A DNA stretch of 64,000 nucleotides from Winogradskyella sp. MH6. GTDB lineage: Bacteria; Bacteroidota; Bacteroidia; Flavobacteriales; Flavobacteriaceae. Under the pieces are notes generated by a model. That model saw nothing but the letters and a program-made list of their open reading frames with translations, was not told the DNA's origin and did no database searches. The stretch covers positions 2,356,001 through 2,420,000 of the forward strand of contig NZ_CP094494.1 of NCBI RefSeq assembly GCF_022810765.1, read 5' to 3'. Positions 41,185 through 45,226 of this stretch are shown one piece after another (position 1 is the stretch's first letter; every line of letters begins with the position of its first letter). The translations under genes were made by a program, and so were the position numbers.

Positions 41185-41997
41185 TTAGTTATTTAAAGTC
41201 CAGATTAAAGCCTTTTCTTTAGTAGCTCTGAAAATAGTATTGTGTTGCTCGTTCGGTTCGTCTGAATATTTCCAAGTTAAATTTGCAGGAGCATTTTTCT
41301 GTAAAGCCTTATCGACTAACTTGGTGTATTGAGAAATATCTTCTACACTAGAACCTGCAAACCATAGTTTTAAATCCTTCTCAGGAAGTTTGGTTAGCAA
41401 AGTATCTGCACTACTAGCTAGGTAATTGTTGTTCCACCAAAGCGAAGGATCCATAGCAATATAAAAATCGAAAGTTTCTGGTGCTGTAAAAAAGGTTTCC
41501 ATAACAAACAGACCAGCTAAGGATTCGCCAATGATTCCTTTTTTAGGTTGTGTTCTATATTTTTTATTGATTTCAGGCATTAATTCTTCAGCAATAAAAG
41601 CTCTAAAATCTTTTGCTCCATCTGTAATTGGACAATATTGTTTATCATCTTCTGCTTCTGAAGAACCTGTTAAATCTCTTCCTCTTTCGGTATTTTCTAT
41701 TCCGACCAAAATGAAAGCAGGTATTTTATTTTCTTCTAACAATTTAGAGAGTGTGTTTGCTATATGCGGAAAATCCTCTTTTATACCACCATCTGGCATA
41801 TAGAGTACAGGAAAATGTTCTGATGATGTTTTATAGCTAGGTGGTGTCCAAACATTTATAACACGATCTTCATTGACATACTTGGATGTTATTATTAAGC
41901 TGTCGTGTTCTGGTATTGGGTCGTTGTATGTTACACCTTTGTCTTTACAGCCCAAAAAGAAGACCATAGTAGTTAAGATTATAATTATTTTTTTCAT
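41185..41997 (-). CDS. Alpha/beta hydrolase lipoprotein (esterase D/Fes-like)
   Basis: This 270-residue protein has a lipoprotein signal (TTMVFFLGC, Cys17). The hydrolase core has the oxyanion segment FPVLYMPDGGI (near 62) and the nucleophile elbow GIIGESLAGLFVMETFF (near 157; serine in GESLAG). MDPSLWWNNNYL follows, and the histidine is probably in EPNEQHNTIF near 250. Relatives include enterobactin/ferric-siderophore esterases and carbohydrate esterases; the substrate cannot be chosen from sequence. It is 22 bp after the SRPBCC gene. Confidence 0.78.
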   Translation of the reverse strand: MKKIIIILTTMVFFLGCKDKGVTYNDPIPEHDSLIITSKYVNEDRVINVWTPPSYKTSSEHFPVLYMPDGGIKEDFPHIANTLSKLLEENKIPAFILVGIENTERGRDLTGSSEAEDDKQYCPITDGAKDFRAFIAEELMPEINKKYRTQPKKGIIGESLAGLFVMETFFTAPETFDFYIAMDPSLWWNNNYLASSADTLLTKLPEKDLKLWFAGSSVEDISQYTKLVDKALQKNAPANLTWKYSDEPNEQHNTIFRATKEKALIWTLNN

Positions 41998-42019
41998 ACA
42001 GCAGACTATTTATTAGTGT

Positions 42020-42478
42020 TTAATTTTCTGAAAGTTCTTTCAGTTTGTTCAAAGCCTTAGACCAAGTTGTGTTGAAATAATCGAGATACTCCTCATCTAC
42101 ATCGCTTTCAATGGTTACAGTTGTGACACCATTATGTTCTTCGAACGAGTAATTTTCAAGTCCGCCAGCCCATTTCTCTACATCTGGTCCTTCGGTTATT
42201 TCATTTTTGCCGTCTAAAATTCCATAATGTCTAATGGAAACAAATTTATAAGGAACATTATCTGCAATTTCAGAGACCATTCCGCCACGTTTGCCGTTTT
42301 CGTCAGTACCAACAAAATAGATTTTAGACCCTTTTTCCCAACTGCCTTCATAAGTAGAGGTTGGATTAAATTTAGCTGTCCATTGCTCGTAGGTTTCAAT
42401 ATTATCAATACCAAGCATAGTATTGTAAACCTTTTTCGCAGATGCTATAATCTCTGTTTTGAATTGCAATTTTTTCAT
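42020..42478 (-). CDS. SRPBCC/AHSA1-like domain protein
   Basis: This 152-residue cytoplasmic protein has a START-like fold. It has the typical N-terminus LQFKTEIIASAKKVYNTMLG, a central IYFVGTDENGKRGGMVSEI, and a C-terminal helix (YFNTTWSKALNKLKELSE). Such proteins bind hydrophobic ligands or act in stress responses. Its start borders the end of the integron-like cassette pair, which contributes the half attC-like site upstream. Confidence 0.8.
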   Translation of the reverse strand: MKKLQFKTEIIASAKKVYNTMLGIDNIETYEQWTAKFNPTSTYEGSWEKGSKIYFVGTDENGKRGGMVSEIADNVPYKFVSIRHYGILDGKNEITEGPDVEKWAGGLENYSFEEHNGVTTVTIESDVDEEYLDYFNTTWSKALNKLKELSEN

Positions 42479-42599
42479 GGTTTCTGAATTGATTAAAAGT
42501 TCTGACTAGCTTATTTGAATTTTACATTTCTAGTTTGCTATGCTTGTTTTAGAAGTAAGTGAGAACAGCGCCATTACTTATAGCCATTGTTGGGCATAG
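42479..42599 (-). mobile_element. Terminal half attC-like site of the cassette array
   Basis: On the plus strand GTTGGGC (42589-42595, consensus GTTRRRY) follows CATT and precedes the stop codon of the DUF4393 gene. The flanking CATTGTTGGGC-TAGTT is shared with 43553-43567. The partner RYYYAAC box is not found before the SRPBCC gene, so this copy is a half-site or degenerate end. Confidence 0.6.
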
Positions 42600-43415
42600 T
42601 TATTTTTTAATACAAGCGGAAATAAATAGCCTTCCAAAATCCGTTAATTCATACATTCCTTTGCTCTCTTTTTTAGCTCTCTTTAAGTCTTTTTCCTCTG
42701 TATATTTATTAAAATGATTATTTATAAGTTGATTATGTTGATTTTCAATTATTTCATAGTCTTTTTCTAATGCCGTGTAATAATAGTCAGAGTATTGAAT
42801 TAGTCCTAAAGACTCTAAATTATTGAGATATATACTTATGTTTTCAGGGAATTTAATATCCTTGATTTTTATATCCAATCCTGTCTTGTTTTTAAAAACA
42901 AAAACATACTCTGTTCTTTTTTCAGGATTGTCATAATGTTTTATAGTTAAAACTGGAATTGCGGGATTTGATTTAATGTGTTTTAATAAGATTGCTTCGT
43001 CAGGTGATAATCTATCAATTAATTGAATGAATCCAGGATGAGCTGTATTGATTGTTTCTGTAGATGAGGCACTTGCTAATAAATTGACAAAAGCATTGCT
43101 CAATTCCTCATTAGAAGTATATGTGAATCTTTCTAAAATAGGCATTGAAATTTCGGTTGGAACTTCAGTAACATTTTCTTCTGGAATGTTTTCTAATTCC
43201 TGTTCGTATTTTTTTAGATTATTCTCAAAATAAATACGAGTTCTTTCATTTACCCACTTAATTGGCCATAGTACAGTATTGCCAATGTTTACTATTGTTC
43301 CTAATGCATTGCCTGCTTTTTTACTTGGTTCACTCAATAAGTCATCATATGCTTTTTCGGCTACTTTTGATTGTCCAATGTTGACTAATGCGTTAATTTT
43401 CGATTCTTCGCTCAT
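42600..43415 (-). CDS. DUF4393 domain protein, cassette-borne
   Basis: The product has 271 residues from the ATG at 43415. The open frame continues upstream to 43484, but that part lies in the attC-like site. DUF4393 features: PTEISMPILERFTYTSNEEL and FVNLLASASS (near 105-135), HPGFIQLIDRLSPDEAILLK (near 140). The C-terminus (YELTDFGRLFISACI) resembles a winged-helix end. The family has no established function; members occur in variable genome regions, sometimes near defence genes. A stop codon directly at the next attC-like box is typical of integron cassettes. Confidence 0.82.
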   Translation of the reverse strand: MSEESKINALVNIGQSKVAEKAYDDLLSEPSKKAGNALGTIVNIGNTVLWPIKWVNERTRIYFENNLKKYEQELENIPEENVTEVPTEISMPILERFTYTSNEELSNAFVNLLASASSTETINTAHPGFIQLIDRLSPDEAILLKHIKSNPAIPVLTIKHYDNPEKRTEYVFVFKNKTGLDIKIKDIKFPENISIYLNNLESLGLIQYSDYYYTALEKDYEIIENQHNQLINNHFNKYTEEKDLKRAKKESKGMYELTDFGRLFISACIKK

Positions 43416-43430
43416 TTTTTTTCTAATTAT

Positions 43431-43562
43431 GCCCAACGGTAAAGTGTATGATTTCGTTGCGTGTTTAAGCACTAAAGTTAGCAAATAATCACAGATAGAA
43501 AATTCCAGCGGAATTTTCGTAAGTAAGCTCTAACTAGCAATGAATTATACACATTGTTGGGC
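43431..43562 (-). mobile_element. Complete attC-like recombination site (132 bp)
   Basis: It is bounded by GCCCAAC (43431-43437, RYYYAAC) and GTTGGGC (43556-43562, GTTRRRY). Inside are imperfect inverted arms: GTGTATGATTTCGTTGC on the left against GCAATGAATTATACAC on the right. A perfect apical hairpin GAAAATTCC-AGC-GGAATTTTC lies at 43498-43518. It lies between two genes in the same orientation, right after the stop of one and 16 bp before the start of the next, the geometry of an integron cassette boundary. Confidence 0.75.
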
Positions 43563-43569
43563 GTAGTTT

Positions 43570-44295
43570 TTATTCTTTTAATTGTATTACTATTCCACCA
43601 AATCTTGCTTCTTCTGCATAGAATTCTTTTCCGTTGATATAGCATAGTTCAGAGTCATACTTTTCTTTTTGTCCAGTTCCAAAATAATATCCTTGACAAC
43701 CTGAACCGGTTATATGCGAATTAAAGAACTCTACTTTTTTTCCATTTAAATCTGTTATTTGTAGGCTACAAGTATGGCAAATAGATTTTGGATATCTTTG
43801 GTCAAAACCTTTTTCTTTTCCGCAATTTGAACAATAGGTTTTAAGCTTTTTACTTTCGTTTAGTATAAATTCACTTTTTTCTTTATTGCTTAAAACAAAA
43901 TTATCCCATCTTGCTATTATAAAATTTTCATTATCCGAAAATTCCATTCGATGTCTTAATTCATTTGTAGTCTGCACAATTAGAGGTGTTAATTCCTCAA
44001 TATAATCTTCTATATTTATTACTTGATTTGGACTATATTCAAGATACCATTCTTTGTTTTGTGTAATGAATTTCCAAAGTTCAGTTATTGAACTAAACCT
44101 CTTTCGAAAAACAAATTTTAATTTCGGTTCAGTCGAATAATTTGATTTGTTCATTCCGAATGAATATTCAATTTTTTTAGATGAATATTTATTTAGAATG
44201 AAACTGCTGTTCTTTTTGATAATTTTATACCAAACAAGTTTATCACTTTTAGATAAATATTTTATTTTTTTTAAAAATTTAGTAAGAATGTTCAT
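43570..44295 (-). CDS. Cassette-borne unknown protein with zinc-ribbon pairs
   Basis: The product has 241 residues and no signal peptide. The N-terminus is basic, the middle (about 60-130) is helical and aromatic-rich, and CxxC pairs at 155/158 and 173/176 (YCSNCGKE ... ICHTCSLQ) suggest a zinc ribbon. A beta-rich C-terminus follows (HITGSGCQGYYFGTGQKEKYD). No family was recognised. It is the first cassette in transcription order. No promoter of its own was identified. Confidence 0.7.
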   Translation of the reverse strand: MNILTKFLKKIKYLSKSDKLVWYKIIKKNSSFILNKYSSKKIEYSFGMNKSNYSTEPKLKFVFRKRFSSITELWKFITQNKEWYLEYSPNQVINIEDYIEELTPLIVQTTNELRHRMEFSDNENFIIARWDNFVLSNKEKSEFILNESKKLKTYCSNCGKEKGFDQRYPKSICHTCSLQITDLNGKKVEFFNSHITGSGCQGYYFGTGQKEKYDSELCYINGKEFYAEEARFGGIVIQLKE

Positions 44296-44307
44296 TTCTC
44301 AAATTAT

Positions 44308-44350
44308 GCCCAACAACTGGATATAGATATTAACTATATCCACGTTATAT
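44308..44350 (-). mobile_element. Leading-edge attC-like site of the cassette array (short or degenerate)
   Basis: GCCCAAC (44308-44314) lies 12 bp before the start of the zinc-ribbon gene on the minus strand, within the AATTATGCCCAAC sequence shared with 43425-43437. The neighbouring 44318-44342 is a hairpin TGGATATAG-ATATTAA-CTATATCCA. The expected opposite box is replaced by CGTTATA, so the site is a short or decayed variant. Confidence 0.55.
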
Positions 44351-44378
44351 GTTTTATTGTTACAATTTACAGAAAATA

Positions 44379-44408
44379 AAAACCACTAATAAAGACATTA
44401 GTGGTTTT
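44379..44408. terminator. Terminator of the sigma/anti-sigma operon
   Basis: A perfect 12-bp stem AAAACCACTAAT/ATTAGTGGTTTT with a 6-base loop, and A/T tracts on both sides, lies between the cassette array and the anti-sigma gene. Confidence 0.85.
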
Positions 44409-44434
44409 TTATCAATAGTATTTGTGTTTTTTAG

Positions 44435-45226
44435 TTATGGAGTAGAGGCCACTACACCAAGCGTATAGAGTTGCTCCATTGTTGGGCTTTCGCTACCACC
44501 TGCAGGTTCTAGAGTAATACCAAAGGCCTGACTTTCGTTAGCATTGGCAATGGTAAATATTTTGTTGTCGTCTGTGTTAAAGTCGTCAATAGTACCTAAG
44601 CTTGTTGGTGTTAACGGATTTAGTGTTAAAGACCATACTTGCCATACCTTACCTTCTGGTGCGTTTGGTAAACCTTCACCATCTAGGTAAATGGTGTTGT
44701 CGGCTTTGTTCCAATACACTTTAGCATAGGTAGCAGCATAGTCGCCTTGGCCACCTAATGGTACTGCGATAATATCTTTATCTCTAATGGCATCTAACAG
44801 ATTTTTGGTTGCTGCAAGATCGCCTCTGGCTTCCTCAATTTGTATCTCAAGATATTGTTTTTCGGTAGAAACGGTTTGTAGTTCTTCTTCAACCTTGTTT
44901 TTGTTGTTGAGAGTCCATAATAAACCACCAGCCAATAATATAGAAGCTGCCCAGCCTGTGTAAGAAATCCAATTAGGTTTTCTTGGTTTTAGGTCTACAA
45001 CTTTTGTGTCTGTGTTTAATTTGCCTTTAAACGATTCAAAATCTATAGCATGTGGAGATACTGCTCCTGTAAGTTTTACAACGGCTGCTTCTATTTCTAA
45101 TACTTCTTGTAATATTTCAGGATGTTGTTGCATCAAGTCATAAACTTCCTGATTTTCTTTTTCAGAAAGCTTACCTGCTACGTAGAGCTCTAAAATACCC
45201 GATTCTATGTATGCCTTTATATCCAT
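44435..45226 (-). CDS. Membrane anti-sigma factor, RskA-like
   Basis: The product has 263 residues. The N-terminal cytoplasmic anti-sigma domain (about 1-60) contains IESGILELYVAGKLSEKENQEVYDLM. One membrane helix follows near 87-106 (WISYTGWAASILLAGGLLW), then a coiled-coil stretch (about 110-145). The extracytoplasmic RskA domain (about 155-260) contains KVYWNKADNTIYLDGEGLP and GKVWQVWSL. It should hold the ECF sigma factor encoded 1 bp upstream until a signal triggers release or proteolysis. Confidence 0.87.
   Translation of the reverse strand: MDIKAYIESGILELYVAGKLSEKENQEVYDLMQQHPEILQEVLEIEAAVVKLTGAVSPHAIDFESFKGKLNTDTKVVDLKPRKPNWISYTGWAASILLAGGLLWTLNNKNKVEEELQTVSTEKQYLEIQIEEARGDLAATKNLLDAIRDKDIIAVPLGGQGDYAATYAKVYWNKADNTIYLDGEGLPNAPEGKVWQVWSLTLNPLTPTSLGTIDDFNTDDNKIFTIANANESQAFGITLEPAGGSESPTMEQLYTLGVVASTP

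Follow-up and report, generated by a model that had tools for sequence, protein, structure and literature searches.

Two integron-type cassettes at an orphan attI in Winogradskyella and their likely link to XerA-like recombinases

Introduction

Sedentary chromosomal integrons with the integrase IntI exist, for example in Vibrio. The additional domain specific to IntI is described as necessary for integron recombination and is the feature by which IntegronFinder identifies integrases (PMC9668308). The IntegronFinder 2.0 paper gives one complete integron in Bacteroidetes proper, that of Salinibacter ruber (PMC9024848), and another source lists Bacteroidota among the phyla with integrons (PMC8618304). 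The IntegronFinder profiles may miss XerA-like recombinases of the kind found here at the head of cassette arrays. In a literature search of journal papers, chiefly open-access ones, no paper combining "integron" and "Winogradskyella" was found, and none of the matches listed, judged by title and the start of the abstract, dealt with Flavobacteriaceae integrons or with an integron recombinase without the IntI domain.

The locus described here lies in a window of 64,000 nucleotides from Winogradskyella sp. MH6 (NZ_CP094494.1, positions 2,356,001 to 2,420,000). It is likely an orphan attI with two integron-type cassettes, joined at GTT by a XerA-like recombinase that would act in trans and use single-stranded attC DNA as its substrate.

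Results

Organization of the locus

The coding strand of the locus is the minus strand of the window and carries, in order, attI, cassette B, attC, cassette A and a truncated attC. In full, the stop codon of an rskA-like anti-sigma factor gene (44435-45226, minus strand), which forms the conserved flank of the landing site, and a terminator-like hairpin are followed by CATATAACGTGGATATAGTTAATATCTATATCCAGTT, GTTGGGCATA, gene B, TACGCCCAAC, the complete attC (43562-43431), GTTGGGCATA again, gene A, TATGCCCAAC with the truncated attC, and an AHSA1-like gene. The latter, with an AHSA1 match of 21.8 bits that falls just below the cut-off of 22.1, makes up the opposite flank together with an esterase gene (41185-42478, minus strand). 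The attI dyad GGATATAGTTAATATCTATATCC (44319-44341, minus strand), which leads through AGTT to the GTT of cassette B, is identical but for one base to the dyad that follows the recombinase gene at G000:C1:437286, recurs at the same place behind rskA in relatives and belongs to a pattern counted across the genus. The start box of cassette B, GTTGGGCATA (44305-44314, minus strand), whose GTT is the putative crossover point, agrees at 9 of 10 positions with the end box TACGCCCAAC of the same cassette once the latter is reverse-complemented, and the boxes of cassette A match at 10 of 10.

Cassette B carries a gene of 241 amino acids (43570-44295, minus strand) for which no convincing family match was found. 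A relative with 53% identity and one in-frame stop lies between two attC sites in another genome (G011), and one with 32% identity, in G279, lies at a locus without an R1 site. The gene of cassette A (42600-43415, minus strand), with its start corrected to the ATG at 43415, encodes 271 amino acids and matches Abi_alpha (PF14337) at 160.5 bits against a cut-off of 29, the query having one extra codon at its start, as well as PADLOC PDC-S47 (E 1.5e-81). Cassette A probably serves in phage defence; its gene is present in one of 68 genus genomes, namely its own. Behind it, the truncated attC (42551-42598, minus strand; end set by eye) keeps the 5′ half with the end box TATGCCCAAC and has lost the apex and the GTTGGGC box, and the covariance model R1 described below scores it at 27.6 bits (E 0.0039) over 42513-42608.

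The first-pass annotation of this DNA had described two genes of unknown function, each closed and opened by attC-like boxes, with one complete site at 43431-43562, and had likened the pair to a CALIN, a cluster of attC sites lacking an integrase. The motifs stand at the positions it gave, and the complete site has the inverted arms and apical hairpin that it described; its picture of integron-like cassettes with a long attC and no integrase in the window is supported. The box pattern is present around both genes, with the amendments that the second site keeps its 5′ half only and that the opening box of gene B is joined to an attI. Gene B still has no family, and gene A is an Abi_alpha. As to the likeness to a CALIN, which has at least two attC sites and no integrase nearby, the integrase gene is indeed absent from the window, but an attI is present and one attC is complete and the other truncated; with an attI at its start, the element is not a bare CALIN.

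Two further features of the region were noted. An extra CATTGTTGGGC at 44477-44487 within the rskA coding sequence has no attC arms and no R1 match in the covariance search of the stretch, and is taken as a coincidence. An Rfam match to MicC at 44341-44420 reaches 35.4 bits against a gathering score of 90 and was judged to be due to chance.

The attC site and its distribution

The complete attC (43431-43562, minus strand), which ends cassette B and includes the start box of cassette A, begins with GCCCAAC (43562-43556) and ends with GTTGGGC (43437-43431), and its apical hairpin is flanked by the paired arms GTGTAT/ATACAC and TTGC/GCAA. Folded as single-stranded DNA, the plus strand of the window, which is the bottom strand for both genes, reaches -23.7 kcal/mol (z -5.08), compared with -20.2 kcal/mol (z -3.47) for the coding strand; none of 200 shuffles folds as well on either strand.

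The 146-base site matches 36 of the 37 same-genus genomes first tested, its own included (E <= 0.01), the sole exception being G013; same-genus here means Winogradskyella, judged by named relatives. The best match in another genome of this set is at 1.8e-56, and 2 of 23 genomes from outside the genus match as well. The 26 sites used to build the covariance model R1 include the window attC, so that the score of 157.7 bits for the latter is that of one of the model's own building sites. At E <= 0.001, R1 sites are found in 172 of 199 Flavobacteriaceae genomes and 171 of 198 genera, and they occur in 64 of the 296 genomes of a phylum sample. They are not universal: 13 of the 17 listed genomes of the Flavobacteriaceae genus g147 had none in the phylum-sample search. 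No match to the site was found in 50,697 phage records, and two of 72,556 plasmid records match, both from Tenacibaculum finnmarkense (CP116296.1 and CP116298.1; attC-like matches of 76-79% identity); plasmids may thus be a further vehicle for such cassettes.

The fetched stretches contain 262 R1 matches at E <= 0.01, 235 of which were taken into the array analysis. The sites form arrays of cassettes in one orientation, as in integrons. The largest holds 115 sites on one strand in G027 and covers, on the assumption of a circular contig, about 117 kb or more, and a second, in G033, holds 28 in a single orientation. The genome of the window itself has an array of 14 detected attC on a single strand (G000:C1:437590-453739). 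The 81 cassette proteins of the G027 array include, among the first 25 families each from Pfam and PADLOC, HerA, DUF4297, an HpaII-type endonuclease, a cytosine methylase, AbiGi, AbiLi/RloB, GmrSD and others. Some insertion sequences are known to target attC, and in the array of the own genome three identical IS110-family transposase genes (L057 10672-11664, L057 12536-13528 and L058 633-1625) sit at one same attC point, where they replace the GTT box.

Crossover point and strand bias

The point of exchange was examined by reverse-complementing the box that precedes AAC at a cassette's end and comparing it with the box that follows GTT at its start; at 23 of the 235 sites, one or other of the boxes could not be read. 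Among the 203 cassettes with readable boxes, the match within a cassette averages 6.48 of 7 positions, with 10 cassettes matching at fewer than 5, whereas the paired boxes of a single site, each from a different neighbouring cassette, match at 2.88 of 7 (n=212) against 2.68 for random pairs; the best of 10,000 permutations reaches 3.08. Since the boxes of a cassette are complementary to each other and those of neighbours are not, exchange is placed in GTT, as in integrons. Judged from the sequences, this pattern is the signature of units that circularize at GTT. Free variation of the outer box, with self-complementarity kept within each cassette, suggests that the fold, and not the sequence, would be read.

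In 26 of 26 sites, two positions of the L arms are A-C on the coding strand and therefore T-G on the bottom strand. Of 190 attCs rebuilt from excised cassettes, 187 have their more stable fold on the bottom strand, by a mean difference of -3.95 kcal/mol; taking the outer arms alone gives 188 of 190. Shuffled controls favour the bottom strand in 418 of 570 cases (mean -0.97), which indicates that composition explains part of the bias. The computed preference is that expected of an integron attC.

A XerA-like recombinase at the array head

No IntI exceeds the TIGR02249 cut-off in any of the 199 Flavobacteriaceae genomes, and such an IntI is present in 84 of the 296 genomes of the phylum sample. 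A search of the own genome with PF00589 gave six recombinases, none of them above the same cut-off. The array of 14 sites is headed instead by a XerA-like tyrosine recombinase of 375 residues (G000:C1:436144-437268), about 2 Mb from the window, whose named relatives at 92% and 82% identity are Winogradskyella. Directly 3′ of its gene stands GGATATAGTTAATAACTATATCC-AATT-GTTAGCAT, followed by the array on the same strand. The enzyme scores 202.4 bits against TIGR02249, for which the cut-off is 265, and the IntI-specific insert is missing: 69 residues separate two motifs in 51 of 55 recombinases of this kind, compared with 111 between the same motifs in 15 of 15 readable IntI sequences. Residues 1-105 (L078) form an N-terminal domain without a Pfam match ahead of the core-binding domain.

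Three recombinase types were assigned by eye at array heads. Type A, that of the own array, is nearly full length in about 20 of the 68 genus genomes; type B (G027, G004 and G029) is oriented divergently from the array that it heads; and in type C, attI lies about 100 bases behind the recombinase stop codon. At the array heads examined, the recombinase is XerA-like and comes with an attI and a matching first box. Short relatives of the recombinase (L177, L178 and L179; 221 amino acids, 53-54% identity) were found in records from Acinetobacter, including one plasmid.

The results above bear on the checks proposed in the first-pass annotation. Of the two folded strands of the site, the bottom one is the better; the site stands between many different genes in other flavobacteria, within the genus and the family; and the IntI-type recombinase sought in the own genome is absent above the cut-off, the candidate being the XerA-like enzyme that heads another array. 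Neither of the two outcomes that it named as refuting was found: the repeats are not confined to these two genes in fixed synteny, as the cassettes at this place differ between species, and a bottom-strand fold is not lacking.

attI sites with and without a recombinase

The attI at the head of the own array consists of the dyad and GTT behind the recombinase gene, an arrangement known from integrons. Relatives named Winogradskyella, Maribacter, Flagellimonas, Robiginitalea and others have a dyad in this position too, of varying sequence but constant symmetry; in more distant relatives no dyad was seen there by eye. At 26 of 36 loci (L095 doubtful), a downstream box complements that of the first cassette, compared with 124 of 1190 among mismatched controls; of the 10 loci where the first box has no partner, several have just 1.5 kb of downstream sequence.

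Of the 68 genus genomes, 20 contain the type-A attI pattern, the own genome in four copies, and none contains the reversed pattern. Among 38 distinct attI sites, a full recombinase stands upstream of 7, a fragment upstream of 4 and none upstream of 27, and a cassette box pair is found at 26 of the 38 and at 19 of the 27 without a recombinase. About 8 of these 27 keep bases resembling the last codons of the recombinase (ATCTTAG). The window attI keeps no such bases, and no recombinase gene lies near it. One further orphan in the own genome, at G000:C1:180509 (L313), does keep bases like these codons, and another (G000:C1:2350892-2350921, L312), about 5 kb outside the window, has two R1 attC beyond it on the same strand. 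The orphan attIs look like integrons after loss of the recombinase, and the changing cassettes at them suggest that they would be served in trans.

The place behind rskA allows comparison across species. Matches to rskA are present in 42 of the 68 genus genomes, and the cassettes at the attI behind this gene differ among five species, the own included. In G036, G281, G274 and G009, the same attI or a variant is followed by different cassettes with matching box pairs (one, two, one and up to three, respectively), and in G027 the attI is degenerate and without a box pair. The far flank in G036, G027, G281 and G274 is an esterase, AHSA1 or guaB gene. Other species have a type-C-looking attI at this place, judged by eye, and some have none visible; in G003, a recombinase gene begins 93 bases behind rskA.

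Discussion

On the proposed mechanism, the cassettes would move as circles, whose attC would fold as single-stranded DNA, preferably on the bottom strand, and a XerA-like tyrosine recombinase would join the circle within the GTT of attI or of another attC. The likely enzyme is that encoded at G000:C1:436144-437268, which has its own attI and array and would act on the window in trans; the orphan site itself is probably an integron whose recombinase gene was lost. The missing IntI insert and the absence of IntI above the cut-off from all 199 family genomes indicate an integron-like mode of working whose likely enzyme falls outside the usual definition of IntI. Beyond this locus, it is probable that Flavobacteriaceae share a family-wide integron system in which XerA-like recombinases that lack the IntI-specific domain capture the cassettes. 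Its lineages A, B and C would head attC arrays of the same kind, scattered attIs without a recombinase would be served in trans by one enzyme, and IntI would form a single derived branch within a broader clade of cassette recombinases.

Other readings of the data differ in what they ask of the sites. If the repeats were dispersed intergenic elements of the MITE or REP type, or transcription terminators, their strong intergenic hairpins would be accounted for, but neither the complementarity within cassettes that is absent between the boxes of one site nor the single-strand arrays headed by a recombinase would follow, and this reading is very improbable. It is improbable, too, that the cassettes stem from ordinary IntI integrons of other bacteria, with Flavobacteriaceae holding CALINs or having exchanged cassettes via an IntI since lost. 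In its favour, IntI is found in 84 of the 296 phylum-sample genomes, and in one genome (G349; L271, G349:C116) a true IntI and an R1-like attC are about 1 kb apart, on opposite strands and divergent. That neighbourhood indicates that the enzyme cannot be told from the type of attC alone, and integrons of the two kinds may exchange cassettes. An origin from IntI is opposed by the lack of any IntI above the cut-off in a family of which 172 of 199 genomes carry the sites, and by the XerA-like recombinases, attIs and matching first boxes at the array heads examined.

A different question is whether the window locus is still in use. The attI behind rskA could be inert and the two cassettes a fixed relic of exchange that has ended, a doubtful reading although one compatible with the wider system. 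The truncation that leaves cassette A without a complete site behind it, the lack of a nearby recombinase and a left flank without recombinase codons would suit such a relic. Less easily reconciled with it are the other cassettes at the same place in four other species, the matching box pairs at 19 of 27 attIs without a recombinase, and the position of cassette B between attI and a complete attC.

If true, the system would represent structure-guided cassette capture independent of the IntI-specific domain. Integron-style gene swapping may then extend beyond IntI, in a system common in marine flavobacteria, and would open a large pool of mobile genes in marine bacteria, phage defence included. 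A large family with integron sites, boxes and arrays but without the IntI domain turns two matters into testable questions: the way in which a Xer-like enzyme recognizes a folded attC, and the origin of integron integrases from Xer proteins.

Compared with known systems, the arrays resemble the sedentary integrons of IntI in their short cassettes on a single strand, in an attI at the head and in attC sites with R and L boxes, as well as in the exchange in GTT, the bottom-strand bias and the defence genes among the cassettes. Unlike those integrons, they have a recombinase without the IntI-specific insert (69 versus 111 residues), which in type A points the same way as the array, and there are recombinase-less attI copies elsewhere in the chromosome. 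The window shares with a CALIN the absence of an integrase gene, but differs from one in having an attI and just one complete attC. With respect to the Xer recombinases (XerA, XerC, XerD and XerH), the enzyme described here differs in being tied to attI and cassette arrays, in grouping with IntI apart from Xer (100/99, in a tree with only two Xer rows) and in about 105 extra N-terminal residues.
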